Below, in pieces: positions 2,127-61,957 of a DNA stretch of 64,000 nt (its first letter is position 1; the number at the start of each line of letters is the position of its first letter). The stretch is from Polytrichum commune (Eukaryota; Streptophyta; Polytrichopsida; Polytrichales; Polytrichaceae): NCBI GenBank assembly GCA_950295325.1, contig OX485804.1, forward strand, positions 64,386,533 to 64,450,532, written 5' to 3'. Under the pieces are notes generated by a model, which was given only the letters and a program-made list of their open reading frames with translations, was not told where the DNA came from and did no database searches. The position numbers were made by a program, and so were the translations under genes.

Positions 2127-2515
2127 GGTCAAACACAAGTTCTAGGATTGCATTCAAGCTAGGAGGGCATGGAGATGGCCCACGTTTATCATGCATGAAT
2201 TGTGTGGGATTAGATCCGGCAATTATGACAACTTTAACTGGAAGCAAGCATTGTTTGGAGAAAAGATCCCTAAGAAAATTGTTAAAAAAAATCAAAACTT
2301 GGCACCTCTTACGAGGTATTACAATGTGGACCATTTGGATTGAACGCAATGACAGAGTGTTCAACCATGAACAATGGCACGAGGCTAAGGTCAAACACAT
2401 GATTTGGGATGAACTGATCATCTACGGCAAGGCGGCGTGGGAGTGGGTGATCAAACACATTAAGGTTAGTAGTTTCTCAGCCGCGGCCATGCTCCAAGGT
2501 TTTGACAAAACTTAG
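2127..2515 (+). pseudogene. C-terminal fragment of a plant LINE ORF2 protein
   Basis: The frame open from 2102 to the stop at 2515 carries ITMWTIWIERNDRVFNHEQW. This is the characteristic C-terminal segment of plant L1-type LINE proteins, downstream of the reverse transcriptase and zinc-knuckle-like region. The fragment ends ...AAAMLQGFDKT. The first eight codons belong to the host MITE, so the apparent start is an accident of insertion. Most of the protein (endonuclease, reverse transcriptase) is absent because the element is 5'-truncated. A second copy of the same LINE 3' region, more decayed, lies at 27480-27960. The fragment cannot be functional. Confidence 0.85.
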
Positions 2516-2829
2516 GGTGCTAGGAATGTCTTATGTAGGAGGAACAATTTACATATTTCTTGGAACTAGAAGAGGCAACGTAGTTAGTCTAGTCGGCCCT
2601 TACCAAGCGACTTTGGTGGCCTAGAGGTTGTCCTTAGCAAGTGGGGTGGAGGTGGTCCTTGGCTTGGTGGGTCTGGTGGGTTGTCCGTGGTGGGATCCTG
2701 GGTTTGTTACTTTTACGTGACGGTGTTTCACGTCCGAGGGGCCCCGCGTCTCCTTGATGTGGGTGCGTTTTCTTGGTTCTTAATGCATTTGGCGTTGGCT
2801 TTGTTGGCCTTCTATCTCAAAAAATAAAA
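2127..2829 (+). mobile_element. 5'-truncated LINE, 3' end only, with 15-bp target duplications
   Basis: Flanking direct repeats are ATAAACTAACAGTAA (2112-2126) and ATAAACTAAAAGTAA (2830-2844), with one mismatch. The corresponding site in the family-B copy near 59825 is uninterrupted. The insert ends in TTCTATCTC followed by an A-rich tail. It contains the end of the LINE ORF2-type protein and a G/T-rich 3' untranslated region of about 300 bp. The 5' truncation, A-rich tail and target duplication are the standard marks of target-primed reverse transcription. Confidence 0.9.
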
Positions 2830-3580: not shown

Positions 3581-6500
3581 TTCGTTCACAATGGATGAGC
3601 ACATTAAATGCCACGAAGCCCATGCTAGTCGTAAGGTGTGGTGAGGTGGACCACCCCGGGTATTTGGGTGGTCAACAACCCCGACCCTCCACCTCGCCAT
3701 CTCCTAATAACTCATTAAAAATATTACATCTTGGTACAAGTCGTCTTTACACTATGTCCCATAAGCGGGGCTTATAAAACCGATTTAGAATTTCTTGTGG
3801 CAATGATTGAGACCACCCACTATGACCTTGAGAAATCTTAATTCATTTGGTCTCACAGCCCATGGCCACGGTATGTGTTAAACAGTCATCATCCATGACC
3901 ACGTGAATGCCACATAGCAGTGTCCGGGGAGATGTTGGCCAAAATTAATCAAAATCCAAGTGATTCCAAGTCCAACGGGTTGCGTGTAGATTTCCTTTTG
4001 AATTTTTGATGTAACATATATAAATTTAGAATACGTTTGATCGATTCTTCTAAAAAGATTCGACAATTTGCCTAAAGCCTCGAAATTGAACTTGGAATTG
4101 GTCATTTTTCAAACCCAACCGGCCCGTCTGTAACTAGTGGTTGGCTTTCCGGGCTTTTTGAAGTGGATTTAAGGAATATGACCAAGTTGGGTTAGAACTC
4201 AAAAACATGGTTGTTGGTCCCCCCCCCCCCCCCCCATGTATAGATATGTCATGTTTCAATTTTTGGGGCAAACACCAACATAGGTTATGTGTTGAAGGAA
4301 GCCGTGTTATAGGTATACGTATAGTAAAGAATATGACATAGTGGTTGTAGTATACTTATATGTAGTCTAATGGTACCATCACATTCTCTATGGGGAACTC
4401 ACTCGCTCGAGTTCATCAACCGCCTTGACTTGAATAGGCTTTGACTCTCGGGGCCGGAGAGTATATTCATGTGAAAGCATCTCGTGTATCTTACACTCGG
4501 TTGTGTGTGTGTGGGGTTTGCTTTATTTGGGGATGCATTCCACCTACACACATGGCGTGAGCTTTCCCTTGAGATGGTGTAGTACCATATGTGAAGAAGC
4601 AAGAGACCAAATTTCACTCGCGTTTCAAGGGGAGGAAAAGATATCACCACACAACTTTGTGGTCCCACCGTTCTTGACTTACTTAAGTGGCATGAATCCT
4701 TGGCCCCGAAGGTTGGAGGATTTTCTTTCTTTCCTTTTTTTTTAAAACATATTTGAAAGAATTCATTGCAGAGAAATATAAAACATTCAGCAAGTCAACC
4801 CTCATTCATGGAGATCGGACGAAGACCTAATAGAACAAATCCACACTAACACTCTTTGACTTCCAAGTCATAATCTTGCCATGACAAACACATAGAATTT
4901 GCTTAACATCCCATGAGTTATCAAACTCGTCAAGGAAATCATGTTTCGCAACCTCCCTTGCAAACTTATGAGGCTCGAGAAGGTTGGAGTTCGAAGGGAT
5001 TCGTAACATGGATAAATATTCCGAGAATTATACAATAACATAAACACTTGGAGGGGGGGGGATCATGTATTGGAAGATGGGTTTAAGAAAAACACAACTT
5101 TACAAACACAAACTCTAGACTGCAGCTTGGGAAGCCACATGGGTAACCAATGCCTAAATCACTCAATCTTTCATGTTCAATTGTGCATAATAGGTAATAT
5201 GGATACCACTGGAAAACTGTACCTTGGCCAAATGCTTTAGAAATCTAATTGGTATCTATGCCATGCAAAATGCAAGGGACACATAGCCTTACATCTAGTC
5301 TATGTGTAACAACTAGTATCTTAAGGGGCTAAAGGATATCAAGGCATAACCTAGTAGTGCACGAGATTGTAGCCCTCATTGTAGCCCAAAGGACAGGGCC
5401 TCTTTCATGTTGGTTGTAAAGACCAATGTTTGACGATCTTTAAAATTTTGTTATGCAAACTTTGTGAATGTGGTTATAGTTGCAATGTTTATTCTAATTA
5501 ATCAATAGGAATTTTTTGGAGCACCTTTGAAGCAAAGCCACGAAGAGAGCCAAAGGTTAGAGCTCATAAAAGGATACTAGAGTTGATTCCTTTTATAGGG
5601 AACTTGAAACTCACTTCTCTAAAGGTTGTATATTTGGAGGGGTGGGAGGTTTTAGAGGGGAGAGAGCACTTCTAAGTTTCATGATGATGAGAATGCGTGA
5701 AATTTCCTTTTGACAAACTTCAACATTAAATCGGTGATATGAGTCCAGGGGTGTCCATATTGAGAATATATGGTCATATTCAAGGACATCTTCCCATGAA
5801 TACCACCCACCTCCTCCCTTCATGTCAAGCCTTCTCCATGCAAAAATTTGACACATGTTGAAAATAATCACATTCAACTTAAACCTTGCATTTTAGTTCA
5901 ATTTCATGTTAGTTGAGAAATAAAAAAACTTACTTTGAAGGATCATAACATTATTCAACTATTATAGGTTGTTCCATTCCTTTATTATGAGAAAGAGGAC
6001 TCCCAAGAGAATGCGAGTAATGTTAAGGAAGTCGAATCTACAAAGACAATTTGTTTGTTTCAAGCCATCCACTAGGCTAAGGTTTATGGGATTTACATGG
6101 ACATCGATCTTAGATTCAACAGGATCCAAACACAACCTACAAAATGGACTCCACAACTAAGGAGAGGAAAAGGAGAATGGATGATGAGCATCCATCTACT
6201 CGAGTCATTTTATGAGATATAATCGATTTTCTCATAAATAGAAACCACAAAATCTTATGGATGAAATGCTCTCTAAGTGGATGAAAAACACATACAATAC
6301 GTTGGAAGTGCTCTCCACTTGGATAAGTGATTGTTCAATGACACATTGTCCATGTTGTTTCTTCAAAAACCTAGGTCCATCTAAGCCCTCCTCTTTCTCA
6401 CCCGTTCTTAAGAAATTTTGAAAGGTTCGTCCTCCACACACGGCAATTTCCTCAAGCCTCCGTAAACCTCTAAGAAGGTTAAAAAAACCTTGCCGTAAAT

Positions 6501-13999: not shown

Positions 14000-14522
14000 A
14001 AATACAAGAAAGACTTGAGGCTCCCTGAAACTACTATGTAACTGCAGACTCAGCATCTGACTCATCAGAAAAGCAAGGGGATGAAATCTCAGAATACAAG
14101 ATTTCTTGCAAATAAAGTATTCACTTATATAGAGAGCCGCCCTCCCGGCCATCATCATCGTGTCTTGAAGTAACCGCCTGTGCAGTGTGAGGTCCCTTGG
14201 ACATCGAATCACTAACTTTAATTAGTTCCTTAAATTTTCCTTTCACCCGCGAATCTGCAGTTTTCATTCGTCAAAGTAGAAAAACTAGAAATAGAAATTT
14301 CATGGGTTTTTTTTTTGAGGTAAGGTAATGTAACTTATTAGATTCCTTCAAGCCGGCTCCCTCTCGCTTGCAGTCTAACCTAGAAGTGGCTTGAACTTAA
14401 ACTTGGCCTGTGATGCAAGAGTGGCAGGCTATGACATCACCTCCCACTCTCTTGCCGATGTCAAGTGCGTCGTCGGGTGATGGCGGAAGCCCTACGTAGT
14501 AGTTGCTTATTAGGGTCCGGGG
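14000..14522. other. Unassigned, GC-richer towards its end
   Basis: No gene recognised. A T-run at about 14310-14320 followed by GAGG resembles a reversed A-rich tail, but I could not find matching target duplications. Confidence 0.4.
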
Positions 14523-14543
14523 TTTAGGGTTTAGGGTTTAGGG
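14523..14543 (+). repeat. Interstitial plant-type telomere tract (TTTAGGG x3)
   Basis: Three perfect tandem copies of TTTAGGG, framed by GGTCCGGG on both sides (AGGGTCCGGGG before, AGGGTCCGGGA after). TTTAGGG is the telomere repeat of most green plants. The short length suggests a repair insertion or a chance variant, not a fusion scar. Confidence 0.8.
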
Positions 14544-14616
14544 TCCGGGATTATATGCTTCGGTTTGGTCTCCTACCACCTACCGAGGGGGTGGTAGTGG
14601 AAACTACCTCCCCCTA

Positions 14617-16371: not shown

Positions 16372-17300
16372 GCAATGAATGGGGAGAATCGACTACTAGT
16401 TATGGATGAACCCGGTTGAGCTTGAGAAAATGCCAGTTGAAGTTCATCGAGACTTCGGGAAAAAAAAAAATTGCCGGTCATTTTAGAGGAGTTTAGAGGA
16501 TATACGTCAACTTGAGTTGATGACTGATTGCTAGTTTAGATGAACCTATTGTCAGGACTGCAAGAACCAGAGAACAAGAAGTGCAATAGTACACAAGGAT
16601 AGCTTTCAAGAAAACATATTTGAACTGGATCGATAATCGGACAAGACACGGTTGAGCTTGAGATATAGCCGGTTGAAGTTCATCGAGACTTCGGAAAGAA
16701 ATTGCCGGTCATTTTAGAGGAGTTTAGAGCATGTAGCTCAAGTTGAGGAGTGGCTGCTAGTTTAGAGGAACCTACTGTCAAGGACGTAAGAACCACCATA
16801 GAACAAGAAGTACAATAGTACACAAGGATAGCTTTCAAGAAAACATATTTGAACCGGATTGAGAACCGGACAAGATACGGTTGAGCTTGAGAAAATAGCC
16901 AGTTGAAGTTCATCAAGACTTCGGAAAAATTGCTGGTCACTTTAGAGGAGTTTAGAGGATATACCTCAAATTGAAAACTGGTTGTTGGTTCAGATGAACC
17001 TATTGTCATGGACGCAAGAACCAGAGATCAAGAAGTTCAATAGTACACAAGGATAGCTTTCAAGAAAACATATTTGAACCAGATTGATAACCGGACAAGA
17101 TACAGTTGAGCTTGAGAAAATAGCCGGTTGAAGTTCATCAAGACTTCGGGAAAAGAATTACCAATCATTTTAGAGGAGCTTAGAGGATACACCTCAAACT
17201 AATAAAAGGAAAACCTAAAAGAGATCAACATGTAAGCGATTGGAGCTTGGAAACACTAGGATGTGGACCGATTGTGCCCAAAAATCTCCCCAAACACTGC
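16372..17300 (+). mobile_element. Family A MITE with internal ~227-bp tandem expansion
   Basis: The ends GCAATGAATGGGGAGA and, reverse-complemented, GCAGTGTTTGGGGAGA mark the family-A inverted repeats. The interior is a tandem array with repeat starts AAGAACC at 16562, 16788 and 17016 (periods 226 and 228). Each unit carries ACAAGAAGTNCAATAGTACA, a GGTTGAGCTTGAGA-like block and a TTTTAGAGGAGTTTAGAG block. Frames on either strand here are by-products of the array. Confidence 0.85.
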
Positions 17301-22313: not shown

Positions 22314-22891
22314 ACATGGGCATGTGTCGATTCAACCATTCCATGATACTGCCTTTGTAGGTGTGTCCAGCTGGGGCGAAACAACCCGTACACTGGTTCC
22401 TTGGAGGCAAGGGTTTAGGCATCCAACAAGGAACGAGTGTATGGGTACGTTGGTTCGCCCAACCCCTCACCAATGAAGGGCCGGGGTGAACCAACCCGTA
22501 CATTGGTTCCTTGGAGGCAAGGGTTTAGGCATCCGACAAGGAACGAGTGAATGGGCTGGGGCGAAACAACCCGTACACTGGTTCCTTGGAGGCAAGGGTT
22601 CACGCATCCAACAAGGAACGAGTGTATGAGTCAACTGGTTCGCCCAAATGCTCACCAATTGAAGGGCAGGGATGAAACAACCCGTACATTGGTTCCTTGG
22701 AGGCAAGGGTTTAAGCACCCGACAAGGCACGAGTGAATGGGCTGGGGCGAAACAACCCGTACACCGGTTCCTTGGAGGCAAGGGTTCACGCATCCAACAA
22801 GGAACGAGTGTATGGGGCTGGTCCGCCCAAATCGCAACATGGGCATGTGTCGATTCACCCGTTCCATGATCCTGCCTCCGTAGGCGTGTCC
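22314..22891. repeat. Higher-order tandem array of family H hairpins between 55-bp direct repeats
   Basis: A direct repeat starting ACATGGGCATGTGTCGATTC lies at 22314-22368 and 22837-22891 and encloses five hairpin units. Two types alternate. Type A (units at about 22375, 22558, 22741) has CGTACACTGG or CGTACACCGG and ends in GTTCGCCC or GTCCGCCC. Type B (about 22485, 22672) has CGTACATTGG and CATCCGACAAG or CACCCGACAAG. Equivalent bases recur every 185-186 bp (22388, 22573, 22759 for A; 22498, 22684 for B), so this is an A-B dimer satellite of about 2.5 periods. Each unit is itself nearly palindromic. Confidence 0.9.
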
Positions 22892-23474: not shown

Positions 23475-23922
23475 TTGTCCTATTAGTGTGGGTAACCATT
23501 CGGGGAGGTACGTTAGTGGTGTTGCGCTATAACACTATTTACCCGACCTTGTCAGTTTTTTAACCAACTAAGGCAGTGATCGGGGAGGTTTTTGGGCATA
23601 ATGGGTTGAGGTCCTAGTGTTTGCAAGTCCGACCGGTTACACGTTGACATCCTTTGGTGTTTTCTATATTCATTTGAGGTATATTCCATGAATTCCTGTA
23701 AAGTGATCGGTGATTCTCCTGAAATCTTGAACTTCAACCGGTTGTTTCTCAAATTCAACCGGTTCATCTGTAACTAACTGCCGGTTCTCTCCGATCATAG
23801 AACTAGGGTACATCGTCTTCTTCGGTGTGCATACTACCTATGTGTGTTGGTTGGGGTGAAAAGTGAATGTTATAACCATGCATAACTCCCAAATGGTAGT
23901 CCACACTACACTAGTAGGACGA
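23475..23922. mobile_element. Family C MITE, copy 2, with nested family A element
   Basis: The left end GTCCTATTAGTGTGGGTAAC and right end TAGTCCACACTACACTAGTA, then GGAC, are inverted relatives of copy 1. The interior is interrupted at 23571-23802 by a family-A element in reverse orientation. Sequence resumes at ACTAGGGTACATCG, equivalent to ACTAGGATATAACC in copy 1. Confidence 0.8.
23571..23802 (-). mobile_element. Family A MITE nested in family C, TSD CTA
   Basis: Starts AGGCAGTGATCGGGGAG and ends CTCTCCGATCATAGAA. It is flanked by CTA at 23568-23570 and 23803-23805. The same position in family-C copy 1 reads AACTAGG with a single CTA, an empty site. The interior carries AACTTCAACCGGTTGTTTCT, the reverse complement of the 14617 copy. 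Confidence 0.85.
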
Positions 23923-24274
23923 GTTAGTGTCGATGATGGTTTTAGTGTAGCTAGCTAGGCAGCAGTTGTGAGCGTTTAGATTCTATGTCTGTGTTTTTTT
24001 GCTTCTAAAGGAGGACCAGGGAAAGGGGGGGGGGGGGGTAAATATCATCTTCTTCGGTGTGTATACTAACTATGTATGTTGGTTGGGTAAAAAGTGAATG
24101 TTATAGCAACGTGTAACTCCGAAATGGTAGCCCAAACTACACTAGTAGGACGAGTTAGTGTCGATGATGGTTTTAGTGTGGCTAGCTGGGCAGCAGCTGT
24201 GAGCGTTTAGATTCTATGTCTGTGTTTTTTTGCTTCTAAAGGAGGACAAGGGGAAGGGGGGGGGGGGGGGGGGG
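23811..24274 (+). repeat. 231-bp tandem duplication with poly(G) ends
   Basis: The segment from ATCGTCTTCTTCGGTGTGCA to the G run is present twice, with equivalent bases offset by 231 (CGATGATGG at 23931 and 24162). Each copy ends in a G homopolymer: 14 bases at 24025-24038 and 19 at 24256-24274. The first copy includes the right end of family-C copy 2, so the duplication followed that insertion. Confidence 0.9.
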
Positions 24275-27281: not shown

Positions 27282-27960
27282 ATGAGTGTGTGTGATATGA
27301 GTAACTTACAAATAGTGCATCTCATGGGGATGGCATTCAAGCTACAAGAGCTTAGCAATGGACTACCTTCATTATGCTCAAACTTAGTGGTGCCGGGACA
27401 TGCAACTATAATTATCTTCATTAGAAACAAACTCTTTTTGGTGAGAAGATGTGGAAGAAATTTGTCAAATAGATCATGATTTGGTTGCTCTTTGTGGCAT
27501 CATCTTATGAACTATGTGGATTGAAAGAAATATTAAGATCTTTAGCCAAAATGAGTGGCATAAATCCATAGTTCCGCATCGCATTTGAGATGAATGCATC
27601 ATTAAACTAATTAAATATGTCAACATTAGCCCGTCATCGGTGGTGGCCATGGTCAAAGGATTCAATAAAACGTAATGTGCAAGAGGTGCTCTTTGCCAAA
27701 GGGACAGCCTTGTGATCAAGTGAAAGTGGAAGCTTCACATGCATTAGGCTCTTTTTGGTTGGTAAATTTGTGGCTTCCTTTGTGTCATTCATGGGTTGTC
27801 CTTGGCCGGTGGTTTGGTGGGTTGTCTGTGGTGGTGGTGTTATACTAAGGTTCGTCTTCCCTTTTACTTAGCGGTGTGGTGCACTTGAGGGGCTCTAGCT
27901 CCCTTCCAAGTGGGCATGTCATCTGGGCGTTGGCTTAATGGCCTCATGTCTCCCAATATA
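27282..27960 (+). mobile_element. Decayed LINE 3' end, second copy
   Basis: Across shifts of frame the plus strand reads LFGEKMWKKFVK, WIERNIKIFSQNEWHKS and VVAMVKGFNKT. These correspond to segments of the 2127-2829 fragment (WTIWIERNDRVFNHEQWHEA, AAAMLQGFDKT). The 3' untranslated part also matches: GTTGTCCTTGGCCGGTGGTT then GGTGGGTTGTCTGTGGTGG, against GGTGGGTTGTCCGTGG at 2667. The 5' boundary is uncertain. Confidence 0.75.
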
Positions 27961-29179: not shown

Positions 29180-31200
29180 CTTCTAGTATGTGCTTCCATT
29201 TGTTAATGATCTTGGATGTAAGTGTGATCGAATCCTCATTCTCCGCTACAATGAGATTGAACTTAATCTAAGCCTCATCCCATGAGAGAAAGATGCGGTG
29301 CTCACTATCTCAAATGTCGTCCACACATTGTATTCCTTTGCGGTAAAGTTTGTTAGCCTTAGCGTACATGAAACCATTGTCAATGAGTTTAAGGCTAACT
29401 ATTGTATGGTATAACTCCCAAGCATCTACCTCTTCGCGGGTTGCACCTAGCCATACCTAAGAATGAGTTGGAGGTCATACTCCCCCAATTCCAATGCCTT
29501 AACAATCCACTTGCAAAGAAGGCTTGTCTTGGCGGCTTCAGGATCAACTAGCCCTAGCCCACCAATTTTCTCAACTAACCCTAGTGTGTGTGAATTGATC
29601 TTTAATTGACCAGGGGAAATTAAGGATACCCCCCCCCCCCCCAATTCTTCTAAGGACCTTATTAGTTTTGCCCCAACCATAATGAAACACCATAGAGTGG
29701 AGAGGAGGACATGGTTACAAATAACTACTCTCTCCATCATAGAAAGTTCTCACGTGCTCCAATAATCAAGCTTCACGGAGATTTTTATTATAGAGAAATT
29801 GGTCCACATTTAATGTGTTGAGGTTTAACCCAAAGGGGGTGCCAGAGAAGCTTGGAAAGGTCCCCTTCTTCCACCCCATTTCCAATTGTAATCGGTGAGC
29901 CACTTCAGTTTATGAGTGTACTTGTTGAACCGATAGGCACACAATTTATCCAAGTTGATCGACATTCCCGATGCTTTGCTAAACATTTCAAGAAATCTAA
30001 CGAGTTCATCTACATGGCATCTATCCCCTCAAACCACAAACGAGGAGTCATTTGCATACTATGAAATGCAATGTTGTTTTTTCCCCCTTGGGAGACTAAT
30101 GCCCTTTAACCTTCCCTCCGCCACTGCTTTGTTGATAAGATGGGTGAGAACTTCACCAACAATGAGGAAAATGTGAAGTTGGAAGAGGGCACCCTTGCCT
30201 TATTCCTCTCTCCATCTTGAAATTCCTACTCAGGGGTGCCATTAAGGTTAATTGCGGCAGAGGCATTCCTAAAGAGAAATTTAACCACGTTAATAAATTG
30301 CTCATCATTACCCATTTTTTGTATATCCAAAAACAAAAACCTTTAGAAAACCTTGTCATCTTTTGAAAAAACCAATTTCAAAAAAATGGTAGGCTACTTA
30401 GGGCGGCTTTATATTAGGGGCCATTTGGCGGCCGGGCCATTTGGAGTAGAGGCAACTTGGACTTGAAGTGGCCCTTACTTTACTCTAACTTTAGCTCTAC
30501 TTTACAAAGTGGCCCGTTGAGTGGCCCTTGCAATATAAAGTCCATAGGACCACTTGTAGGGTCCAAATTGGAAATTCCGCTTTAAAGTGGGCCTTCCAAA
30601 TGGCCCTAGGGACTTTATATTGTAAGGGCCACTCAACGGGCCACTTTGTCTTAAATGAATTATGCCCTTTCTTGAACTAAAGTCATAAAGTCATAAAGTC
30701 ATAAATGACTATATGACGGAAGTTGGGTGAAGTGGCCTGTAGATGCGAAGTGGCTCTCCATAAACCCTCGACCCATTTTTTTGCCGGCGGGCCACTTTTT
30801 CCCCTCCAAAACGCTGCCATGTCACCCGCCACGCAAGCTTTAGGAGAAGTGGGCCGACTCTCAATATAATGCCCTCGGGGCCATATTAGGGGCCATTTGG
30901 GCAATCTAAGCACTCTCATTGGTTGATGCCTAGGGTTTGGAAACGGCCCCTAGAAATGGCCCCTAATATAAAGCGGCCCTTAGATTCTTTGGCCTAATGT
31001 ATTGATTTATGGAAAAATCTTGTAAATTACTATGAGTAGGATGATTGGCCGCCAAAAGATAGGATTTTGGGCATCCCCCCCCCTTTGGGAATAAGACTAA
31101 TGAGACCTCTAATAACACCTTCACGAAAGGGACCATGTTCGATCCATTTGAAAATTATCTAGTGGAAGTCATTCCCGAGTGTTGGTTATATGTTTTGTGA
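29180..31200 (-). pseudogene. LINE reverse transcriptase pseudogene (ORF2-type)
   Basis: Minus-strand motifs in order are GLISLIPK (about 31110), WRPI (31043-31054, the conserved block ahead of the palm), GIRQGCPL (30184-30208, RT motif), YANDSSFVV (30047-30058 for YAND, replacing the catalytic YADD) and SKASGMSINLDK. Further on comes GGLGLVDPEAAKTSLLCKWI (about 29505-29564), typical of the region joining RT to the C-terminal zinc-knuckle domain in plant LINEs. Loss of the second active-site aspartate side chain (D to N at the first D), several stops and at least two frameshifts make it dead. The insertion of a MITE postdates or contributed to this. No endonuclease part was recognised. Confidence 0.85.
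30401..30979. mobile_element. Harbinger-like MITE (family K), TSD TTA
   Basis: The ends GGGCGGCTTTATATTAGGGG and, reverse-complemented, GGGCCGCTTTATATTAGGGG are inverted repeats that continue as CCATTT. It is flanked by TTA at 30398-30400 and 30980-30982. It carries a second, inner pair of inverted repeats, GTGGCCCGTTGAGTGGCCCT (about 30500) and AGGGCCACTCAACGGGCCAC (about 30627), about 38 bases each, suggesting a nested or rearranged element. Its insertion site lies inside the LINE reverse transcriptase. Confidence 0.9.
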
Positions 31201-43451: not shown

Positions 43452-43548
43452 AAGGCAGGCAGGCAGCCTGCCCTTCTGTCTCAGGAAAAATAAATAAACA
43501 AAAAAACAAAACAAAAAGAAGAAGAAGAAAGGCAGGCAGGCAGCCTGC
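43452..43548 (+). mobile_element. Ultra-truncated LINE tail with 20-bp target duplications
   Basis: The direct repeat AAGGCAGGCAGGCAGCCTGC is perfect at 43452-43471 and 43529-43548. The 57 bp between begin CCTTCTGTCTCAGG and continue as an A-rich tail with C and G interruptions. CCTTCTGTCTCA is the terminal sequence of the LINE family at 2127-2829. Because the duplicated target is itself partly repetitive (GGCA units), slippage is a weaker alternative explanation for the flanks. Confidence 0.75.
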
Positions 43549-43713: not shown

Positions 43714-45450
43714 CACCCTAACCTTGATAATGTCACACCCTCCGTTTCACCAAAAAGTGTGATATAAACAAGGTGTGACATACTTGATAATGTCACATTT
43801 TGTGCATAATGTGATATTATCAAAATATATGTAGAAAATCAAAATATAATTACAATTTTTTATTTTTTTTAAATACAAGACTTCAATGTTTACCAATGTA
43901 AAATCTAATTCAAAATTGTGAATAACAACAAGAGCACATCATAATGTGTCATTGAGATGAGGTAAAGACCTCTCACTAGAGACAAAGAAGCTTCTAATGT
44001 CACATTGTTTTGTTGATGTTAAATGTGCAACACCAATTCTAATGAGTTTGTCATGGATTTTTTCCATTTCTAACAACTCATGAGTGCTTAAAATCTGAGA
44101 ACCTTGGCTAGCCATAAAATTCAAAACATCTTTAGCATATTTTTGTGCATCGCTTAGCTTCACTACTTTAGACTCATCATCACTGCTATCAACAATCAAT
44201 GGGTCCACTTCCATGGAATCAAGAACCTGTACGCCATCTTGCACTAATTGCACAAGCTCCTCATTAGAAAATTCCACCTCAAAATCATCTTCACCTTCCA
44301 TGTTTATGTACTCCAAAGGACAAAGCTTTTCTATAGGCTTGCCTTCAACATCCAAACCCAAATTTAATGCGGCGATGAGTCTACCCAATTCCAAAGTTGC
44401 TTCCTCCATTTTGGACTTCATACGTTCATCAAGATTGTTTATATCTGCATTCCACTCTGCATGCAATATGGCGGACTTTCTCCAACAATTTCTAATGGTT
44501 TGATCATCTAATTCATGCCATGCCGCCACACACCATAGCATAGCTTGAAATACATCAACATTCAATTTCCCCAAATCTTCATTTGAGTTGTTATCAATTT
44601 GTTGCAAAGTCCAGGCAACAAGCTTGCGCTTATAGCACATTTTGAATGCTGCAATCACTCCTTGATCCAAAGGCTGAACAACTGAAGTCACATTTGGTGG
44701 AAGGAACAAGATAGTGATATGGAAGAGTACAAAAGCATGAAACCCATCTATAACTTTCTTGACCTCACCATGAATATCATGGCTTCCTGCATTATCCATA
44801 ATAATGCAAATCTTTTTGTCTTTCAATGCCATTCTTCGGTTCTCACTCTTCACCCAATGTGTAAAAACATCACCATTCATCCAGGCTGAATTGTTAAAAT
44901 TATAGTGTACTGTCCTATTTGGATCAAAATTCCGAGGAAAGCATATGGGACGCGCTGCTTTGTGAATGAAAACAAGCTTCAATTGCTCCTTCCCTGAGAT
45001 ATTAGTGCAAAGCCCCAATGTCACACGGTCCTTCTTTTTCTTATTTCCTTTCGCCTTCCCAATATTCAAATTCTTATAAGGAGAGGCTCTATAATACAAA
45101 CTTGTCTCATCATACGATGCATACGATGCAGGCGGAGCTACGAGAAGTTGATATGCGAGAGAAACCGTTGCTTCTTCGGCACATGAGATTCAAGAACCCA
45201 AGATTCAAGCGGAAGCAGGTGAAGATGCCGACGTCATCCATGGAATTTGTTGTCCATCCGGCCTTTTTTCATCCATGTTACTTGTTATTATCACACTTAC
45301 ACTACAAATTTTGAAAAACAAATGTGACATTATCAAGGGTGATAGTGATAATAACGAGGGAGTTTTACACTATGGAAATCGGTTTCAAACTTTTAGGTGA
45401 CAATATCAAGGTGTTCTATTAACAAGTGTGATATTATCAAGGTTAGGGTG
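43714..45450 (-). mobile_element. Tigger/pogo-like DNA transposon, internally deleted, TSD TA
   Basis: Terminal inverted repeats of 25 bp start CACCCTAACCTTGATAAT on both ends. They differ at one base (GTCACAC left, ATCACAC right). TA flanks it at 43712-43713 and 45451-45452, the canonical Tc1/mariner/pogo duplication. Further subterminal repeats of the TGATAATRTCACA type lie within both ends. The host sequence has a paralogous empty copy at 45588-45665 that contains a single TA at the same point. Total length is 1,737 bp. Confidence 0.93.
43939..45189 (-). pseudogene. DDE transposase of the Tigger/pogo (DDE_1) type, N-terminus missing
   Basis: The frame is open from just after a stop at 45190-45192 down to the TAA-type end at 43939, about 416 codons. 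It contains the complete catalytic core in order: YDETSLYYRASP (first D at 45109-45111), IIMDNAGSHD (second D at 44794-44796) and LPPNVTSVVQPLDQGVIAAF (third D at 44665-44667, 42 residues after the second). There is no in-frame ATG upstream of the core, and the CENP-B-like helix-turn-helix normally ahead of it is absent. A short ATG frame of 23 codons at 45205-45276, in another frame, may be the old N-terminus. A 9-bp tandem duplication (CATACGATG twice, 45111-45128) lies just before the first D. The acidic C-terminal tail is retained. The catalytic residues look intact, but the protein as a whole is probably not functional because DNA binding is lost. Confidence 0.9.
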
Positions 45451-45494
45451 TAACTTTAAAAAGTCTTTGGGCTTCTCACGAAGTTATGGGATTT

Positions 45495-45580
45495 GGGTGA
45501 ACCAACCCATACATGTGTGTCCCTGTTGGATGCCCAAACCCTTGCTTTCAAGGAACTAGTGTACGGGTTGGTTCGCCCCA
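45495..45580 (-). mobile_element. Family H hairpin, solo copy
   Basis: GGGTGAACCAACCCATACAT on the left and GTACGGGTTGGTTCGCCCC on the right pair as arms around GGATGCCCAAACCCTTGC. It lies between the Tigger-bearing sequence and its empty-site paralogue. Confidence 0.85.
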
Positions 45581-45587
45581 GCCTGTC

Positions 45588-45665
45588 AGATGGCCTAATT
45601 GTTGTGGTCCAATTTTTGTGGGAAAAAAAATGTATTTTTAAAAGTCTTTGGGCCCCTCACTAAGG
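45588..45665 (+). repeat. Paralogous empty site of the Tigger insertion
   Basis: AGATGGCCTAATTGTTGTGG, then GTCCAATTTTTGTGGG, AAAATGTATTTTTAAAAGTC and TTTGGGCCCCTCAC align with 43668-43713 joined to 45451-45483. The join falls exactly at the TA. Confidence 0.8.
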
Positions 45666-45789
45666 TATGTACACTCCTAAACCACCGCCGAACTGAAAAC
45701 CATCACTATGCATCACATGCATACATTTGGAAGCACCAAATGTAGTGCATGTGATGCATAGTGGTGGTGGTTTTGGGTATACGTACCTT
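45663..45789. mobile_element. Hairpin MITE, family I, near-perfect arms
   Basis: The left arm (AGGTATGTACACTCCTAAAC ... ACTATGCATCACATGCATAC) pairs with the right arm (reverse complement AGGTACGTATACCCAAAACC ... ACTATGCATCACATGCACTA). The loop is only a few bases. It is related to 15733-15893. Confidence 0.8.
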
Positions 45790-51154: not shown

Positions 51155-51620
51155 AAAGTATTCCTTATAAAATAGACTTGAGAATTTCTAGCAAACGAGC
51201 ATGTTGCACGTAGTCCAGGCCCTTCCGAACATGGACTCCAAACATAACTTTATCCAGCTAGTAATATGCATCGGGTGGGGCCGGGAATAAGCCATATCCT
51301 ATTCGAAACTATACCATGCTTATTCTTCCTTACCATGAAACTCTTTCTTACCATGAAATTGAACCAGATAAACTCGAGTGAAGCACTGTCACTGATATTA
51401 TTACAATGAAACGGCCGATAGCAGTGAATAATAATGTCCTGGAGTTAGAACTATAAAATTCATTACTTGGGGACAGGCTGATCTACATATCATATTAACA
51501 CTTTATCCATGTTGCCAGGCCTAGCCTATACACTTCTAGCCTTGTGTTCCATGCCAGGTGACCATGACTGATGCTCTTTAACCCTAAGGACCAAGAGGCC
51601 TTTTACCTGTGTACCAGCTA
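51155..51620. other. No recognisable feature
   Basis: No supported frame or repeat. Confidence 0.4.
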
Positions 51621-52757
51621 GTGCCCGGGAAGTTTTTGGGCAGACATAGTTGGTCGAGATCCTATATAGTGATGAGTCTAAATCCAGCCGCTTACATGTT
51701 GACATCTTCCGGTTTTGCTTTCATTCATTTGAGGTATATTCTTCCATAGATTCCTACAAAACGATCGGTAATTCTCCTGAAGTCTCCAACTTCAACCGGT
51801 TATTTCTCAAACTCCACCGGTTATTTCATCTGTAACTAACTGTCAGTTATTTCCAAACAAGTGCCCGGGAAGTTTGTGGGCATACAGAGTCGGTCAAGAT
51901 CCTAGTGATTCTAAATCCAACTAGTTACAAGTTGACATCTTCCGGTTTTACTTTCATTCATTCGAGGTATATTCTTCCATAGATTCCTCTAAATGATCGG
52001 TGATTCTTCTGAAGTCTCCAACTTCAACCGGTTATTTCTCAAACTCAACTGGTTATTTCATCTGTAACTAACTGTCGTTTATCTCCAAACGAGTGCCCGG
52101 GAAGTTTGTGGGCATATAGAGTCGGTCAAGATCCATGTGATTCTAAATCCAACCGGTTACAAGTTGACATCTTCCAGTTTTGCTTTCATTCATTTGAGGT
52201 ATATTCTTCCATAGATTCCTCTAAAACGATCGGTGATTCTCCTGAAGTCTCAAACTTCAACCGGTTATTTCTCAAACTCCACCGGTTATTTCATCTGTAA
52301 CTAACTGTCAGTTATTTCCAAACGAGTGCCCAGGAAGTTTGTGGGCATAGTCGGTCAATATCCATGTGATTCTAAATCCAGCCGGTTGCATGTTGAGATC
52401 TTCTGGTTTTGCTTTCATTCATTCGAGGTATATTCTCCTCAAGTCTCCAACTTCAACAGTTATTTCTCAAACTCCACCGGTTATTTCATCTGTGACTAAC
52501 TGTCAGTTATTTCCAAACGAGTGCCCAGGAAGTTTGTGGGCATATATAGTCGGTCAAGATCCATGTGATTCTAAATCCAGCTACTTACATGTTGACATCT
52601 TCCGGTTTTGCTTCCATTCATGTGAGGTATATTCTTCTATAGATTCCTCTAAAATGACCGGTGATTCTCCTGAGGTCTCGAACTTCAACCGGTTATTTCT
52701 CAAACTCAACCAGTTATTTCATCTGCAACTAACCGCCGGTTCTCCCTGAGCCCTGCT
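51621..52757 (-). repeat. Five-unit tandem array of family A units
   Basis: Units start at GTGCCCGGGAAG or GTGCCCAGGAAG at 51621, 51861, 52093, 52326 and 52521 (spacings 240, 232, 233, 195). Each is the reverse complement of a family-A body: CAACCGGTTATTTCTCAAAC, TCATTTGAGGTATATTCTTC, and a CTAACTGTCAGTTAT end. Only the last unit ends in CTAACCGCCGGTTCTCCCTG, close to the real family-A terminus. Proteins of 60-127 codons read through the units and are not genes. Confidence 0.9.
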
Positions 52758-61875: not shown

Positions 61876-61957
61876 CAAAAAGATACGTGCTACATTCACT
61901 TGGCGTCGACTGTGTTGGCCTTCTGTTTCAAAAAAGAGAACAAAAAGATACGTGCTA
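61876..61957 (+). mobile_element. Ultra-truncated LINE tail with 17-bp target duplications
   Basis: The direct repeat CAAAAAGATACGTGCTA is perfect at 61876-61892 and 61941-61957. The 48 bp between include CACTTGGCGTCGACTGTGTT, GGCCTTCTGTTTC and a short A-rich tail. That matches the last bases of the LINE at 2127-2829 (TTGGCGTTGGCTTTGTTGGC then CTTCTATCTC). The 62-codon frame over this site is accidental. Confidence 0.9.

Follow-up and report, generated by a model that had tools for sequence, protein, structure and literature searches.

The window analysed here, a 64-kb stretch of the Polytrichum commune genome, contains three short inserts that share a LINE-like 3′ end, together with two longer copies with the same or a similar end. 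The first insert (case A, 61876-61957, forward strand) is 48 bp long (61893-61940) and lies between perfect 17-bp direct repeats, CAAAAAGATACGTGCTA, which are identical at 17/17 positions. Repeat scans and alignment of the boundary place the 5′ copy of this target site duplication at 61876-61892; the 3′ copy, found in the repeat scans, occupies 61941-61957. Between them, the first 37 nt of the insert (61893-61929) align without gaps to window positions 2782-2818, the 3′ end of a longer copy (copy D, 2128-2818), from which they differ at 8 sites (29/37 identities), and the remaining 11 nt (61930-61940) read as an A-rich tail, AAAAAAGAGAA. The initial annotation had described a 48-bp insert with a perfect 17-bp duplication, and its coordinates proved exact. 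It had also ascribed about 30 bases to a LINE; the LINE-like part proved slightly longer, since 37 nt align to copy D.

Two companions had been proposed at 1561-1634 (40 bp) and 43452-43548 (57 bp), and both are present, with duplications identical at 17/17 and 20/20 positions, respectively. The 40-bp insert of case B lies on the minus strand and comprises 23 nt of LINE 3′ end (1595-1617; 19/23 identities to copy D) and an A-rich tail, AAAAAACAAAAACAAAA, assigned by reading the sequence (1578-1594). In element sense, the 5′ copy of its 17-bp duplication, AGTAAGTCATTGTTAAA, is located at 1618-1634 and the 3′ copy at 1561-1577, both recovered by the repeat scans. The 57-bp insert of case C, on the forward strand, has only 11 nt of LINE 3′ end (43472-43482; 10/11 identities to copy D) and opens with an exact CCTTCTGTCTC once the full 20-bp duplication is assigned; by sequence reading, the rest is an A-rich tail with AGG at its start and an AAG repeat at its end (43483-43528). 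A tract scan located the two copies of the duplication, AAGGCAGGCAGGCAGCCTGC, which is partly GGCA microsatellite, at 43452-43471 (5′) and 43529-43548 (3′). All three inserts have the common 3′ terminus (C/T)CTTCTGTYTC and differ in their 5′ ends, and in each the A-rich tract separates this terminus from one of the two duplication copies.

Longer copies and the identity of the element

Copy D (2128-2818, forward strand) has the same 3′ terminus as cases A-C. It is a 5′-truncated, LINE-like copy of about 690 bp with a reading frame that extends to about 2512, and the wide tract scan placed it between the copies of a 16-bp duplication that agree at 15/16 positions (2112-2127 and 2830-2845). Its A-rich tail begins at 2819 and is overlapped by the 3′ copy of the duplication; as in the three short cases, an A-rich or simple-repeat tail thus stands at the 3′ end. 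Measured from the common end, the LINE-derived parts are 11 (C), 23 (B), 37 (A) and about 690 nt (D) long.

An older and diverged copy, E (27324-27952, forward strand), is related to copy D and has a similar 3′ end. The two were matched by blastn (58.7% identity, alignment length 661, 5.8e-21), by linked tblastx pieces on one strand (8e-30) and by global alignment (404 of 701 columns identical). We looked for a clear tail or duplication at copy E and saw none. Copies D and E begin within about 17 nt of one element position, which may be due to chance or may point to a short non-autonomous family. Their existence implies that the tails of cases A-C belong to an element with longer, seemingly once-coding copies.

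The reading frame of copy D presumably resembles the C-terminal end of plant LINE ORF2. Since the frame had no significant match in Pfam (best E-value 0.37, to an unrelated family), we base the label LINE on structure and on resemblance to the C-termini of plant LINEs. Of the 13 frames given to Pfam, some of them overlapping, none had a match at the curated cut-off, and neither an endonuclease nor a reverse transcriptase domain was seen in them; the copies represent 3′ portions. When the frame at 2201-2512 was searched at the protein level against viral_contigs, it returned 48 pattern matches and no relative. A 20-base tail pattern occurred 5 times in viral_contigs and 8 times in genome_contigs, and we judged all 13 to be chance matches, because the 5 viral ones are one identical stretch and because the flanks (about 45 bases before and 40 after each match) showed neither an A-rich tail nor upstream LINE bases.

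Two further frames in the window lie on the minus strand. One, of 100 aa (29450-29749), had no Pfam match; we take it to resemble plant LINE coding sequence. The other, an open frame of 416 aa (43942-45189), carries a transposase domain, DDE_1 (Pfam 1.1e-33), and is the sole Pfam-searched frame to reach a curated cut-off; we take it to resemble pogo/Tigger transposases.

Direct repeats at A-rich tracts

The duplications of cases A-C could be direct repeats that arose by chance beside equally fortuitous motif matches. Taken alone, case C, whose repeat consists partly of GGCA units, would be open to this doubt. Our main scan covered 150 A-rich tracts on both strands, made no use of the LINE motif and sought exact upstream direct repeats of at least 8 bp at a distance of 20-160 bp from start to start, with the best repeat kept per tract and with limits on start offset and low complexity. 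Ten of the 150 tracts had such a repeat: three of 20, 17 and 17 bp, corresponding to cases C, A and B, and seven of 8 bp. In the opposite direction, the same tracts gave 10 matches with a longest repeat of 11 bp, and 60 order-1 Markov windows, each scanned in two directions, gave 499 matches with a longest repeat of 13 bp. The motif CCTTCTGTCTC, allowed up to two mismatches and located within 18 nt upstream of the tract, precedes 4/150 tracts, namely those of cases A, B and C and the tail of copy D at 2819. A null maximum of 13 bp against observed lengths of 17, 17 and 20 bp, and the presence of all three cases among the four motif-bearing tracts, make an origin by chance the least probable of the explanations we considered. 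The claim that this 64-kb window holds three near-empty retrotransposition events of one family is thereby supported, as the inserts belong to one 3′-end family and their duplications exceed the null expectation.

Three other scans differed in scope. A direct-repeat scan (at least 12) returned 160 repeats, and an A- or T-rich tract was placed as in an insertion in 5 of them and in control geometry in 2; the five comprised cases A and B plus three more at 442-1031 bp, of which two lie inside a tandem array, and case C was lost to the complexity filter. The first tract scan (score at least 11, up to 6 kb) produced 12 matches against 11 controls and missed case C, due to the complexity filter, and copy D, probably due to the start limit. 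The 11-bp candidates at tracts 32218 and 4721 were no better than controls and were rejected. The wider scan (score at least 12, up to 6 kb) had 10 rows against 11 in its opposite-direction control; these were cases A-C, copy D and six rows that we set aside after inspection. Rows 24004, 41645 and 41642 lie inside longer local repeats, the motif of row 45321 recurs in controls, row 10213 matches over 12 bp at a distance of 2058 bp, as controls also do, and row 45636 belongs to a two-copy repeat of 34 bp (85%), longer and less exact than the others.

The last of these repeats spans 45455-45669, with an A-rich tract ahead of its second copy, and may be an old A-tailed insertion. On the minus strand, at 4718-4990, two 11-bp repeats, CTCCAACCTTC, enclose a segment of about 260 bp that has an A-rich end; it is perhaps a retrocopy, though its repeat length is only at the level of the controls. 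The window also contains four tandem arrays, whose periods range from 186 to 232 bp (51620-52733, 16413-17198, 22370-22814 and 23812-24269). By eye, the unit of the array at 16413 (ATTTTAGAGGA...) also occurs singly near 300 and 14890. A short repeat with GGGTTTA units is found at 14510-14549; together with the type of LINE, it points to a land plant.

Mechanism of insertion and age of the inserts

Because the 3′ terminus is constant, the 5′ end variable, the A-rich tail adjacent to the duplication and the duplication 16-20 bp long, we read each short insert as the product of one event of target-primed reverse transcription by an L1-type LINE family, with a probability of roughly 0.88. In the sequence of events that we infer, the endonuclease of the element would nick one strand and the exposed end would prime on the A-rich tail of the element RNA; the enzyme would then copy the tail, go on into the 3′ end for no more than 11, 23 or 37 nt and stop, and second-strand cleavage 17-20 bp away, followed by end joining, would leave the duplication. 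Determined by eye, the last bases of the putative priming strand are TACT in case B, CCTT in case C and TTTAT in copy D; in case A they are TTTTT if an ambiguous C is assigned to the tail and TTTTTG otherwise. A nick of the TTTT/A-like kind is therefore, by eye, not classical in B, C and D and is obtained in case A only with one ambiguous base. Against the mechanism proposed here, case C has just 11 nt in common with the element, and part of its duplication is microsatellite.

Filler DNA is known in plant genomes and gives short inserts with duplicated flanks. Applied to the present cases, a staggered double-strand break would have been patched with a scrap of LINE sequence. The likeness to such repair lies in short inserts flanked by duplications; the constant terminus and the side on which the A-rich tail stands are unlike it. 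Since patching offers no reason for the same LINE terminus and an A-rich tail before the duplication in 3/3 cases, we consider it quite improbable.

Still less probable is an origin from a SINE with a tail acquired from the LINE. In maize and sorghum, SINEs whose 3′ ends resemble those of LINEs do occur, according to the excerpted text of PMC3747384, but the inserts seen here are 40-57 bp long and headless, with too few bases for a tRNA, 5S or 7SL head. Neither a tRNA gene (ARAGORN) nor an Rfam family at the gathering threshold was found in the window.

Target-primed reverse transcription is also the reading under which the inserts most resemble a known system, the 5′-truncated insertions of L1-clade LINEs, with which they share the constant 3′ end, the A-rich tail, the variable 5′ end and the duplication of 16-20 bp. 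For human L1, the excerpted text of PMC12016303 gives duplications with a median of 13 bp and quartiles of 10-15, a range near the one observed here.

The initial annotation had concluded from the perfect duplication of case A that the insertion is recent. The perfection holds, but it is a weak sign of recency: with one perfect 17-bp repeat, divergence of up to 16% remains compatible (95%), and with the 54 sites of the three cases combined, up to 5.4%, limits that are generous because the cases were noticed for being perfect. The LINE-derived parts differ at 8/37 positions between D and A, 4/23 between D and B and 5/23 between A and B, the 11 nt of case C differ at 1/11 from each of A, B and D, and the A-rich tails of cases A-C are not pure A. 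From the tail differences it follows that the inserts are old, or come from diverged source lineages, or both. We consider it probable that the sources diverged and possible that the inserts are recent.

Insert length: truncation or early stop

The clearest difference to other truncated LINEs is length. Against the 11-37 nt of LINE sequence in cases A-C, human insertions have medians of 394 bp (somatic) and 1240 bp (germline) in the excerpts of PMC12016303, and truncated LINE members are given as 100-1,000 bp in those of PMC3747384. Four A-tailed inserts have a credible duplication, and three of these contain at most 37 nt of LINE sequence. The set comes from the wider scan, in which 10 rows stood against 11 control rows and six were dropped after looking; with row 45636 counted, the ratio becomes 3/5. 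Under an exponential model of truncation with the human medians of 394 and 1240 bp, the probability of at least 3/4 inserts this short is 9.5e-4 and 3.4e-5, respectively, and that of at least 3/5 is 2.3e-3 and 8.3e-5, values to be read in the light of n=4, of a window picked for this feature, of human lengths as a poor yardstick and of survival that may favour short inserts. The excess over exponential truncation hints at something beyond the ordinary process. Most likely, the inserts are nevertheless the short end of ordinary 5′ truncation, and short ones are perhaps favoured because they do little harm and so persist.

The same excess would be expected if the reverse transcriptase stopped unusually often at a small hairpin in the 3′ end, so that tail-only inserts would form a peak of their own. 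Folding predicts a 4-bp stem (GGCT..GGCC) within the terminal 22 nt of copy D, and one with the same arms in copy E. By eye, case B can form the stem as GGCC..GGTC and starts 1 nt before it, and case C starts inside its 3′ arm. In case A, however, the stem has a mismatch, the predicted fold of the 37 nt differs and the breakpoint lies 15 nt before the stem. Moreover, none of five stretches folded better than mononucleotide shuffles (z -1.34, -1.86, -0.76, 0.09 and -0.82), and the excess itself comes from four inserts in a window that drew attention for this feature, set against human lengths. We therefore regard such an early abort as unlikely, albeit less so than filler DNA or a SINE. Slightly more doubtful still is its strongest form, a family with a built-in stop in the last 40 nt, at or near the hairpin, in which most integrations would leave a 40-60 bp tail and a large population of inserts would be hidden.

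A conserved, structured 3′ end has been described for a plant L1 lineage that comprises maize LINE1-1_ZM and ZmSINE2/3 (excerpts of PMC3747384). The element studied here resembles this lineage in its recurrent 3′-terminal sequence and possible small stem, and differs from it in the weakness of the stem and in that the window yielded no SINE partner. The CGAG flank and UCU loop that the excerpts give for the maize lineage are, by eye, absent at the stem: CGAG occurs once in copy D (2735-2738), about 80 nt upstream, and TCT is found in the terminus, not in the loop.

Under ordinary truncation, the reading we prefer, cases A-C are ordinary in mechanism and extreme in length; as they stand, they are truncations carried to an extreme, within a process that is well understood. 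Inserts reduced to a tail preserve the first steps of LINE integration, and cases A-C supply an exact pattern that can be counted in the genomes of relatives. If such inserts are common, they would add 40-60 bp insertions that have so far escaped counting, and would reveal at which point the enzyme halts.
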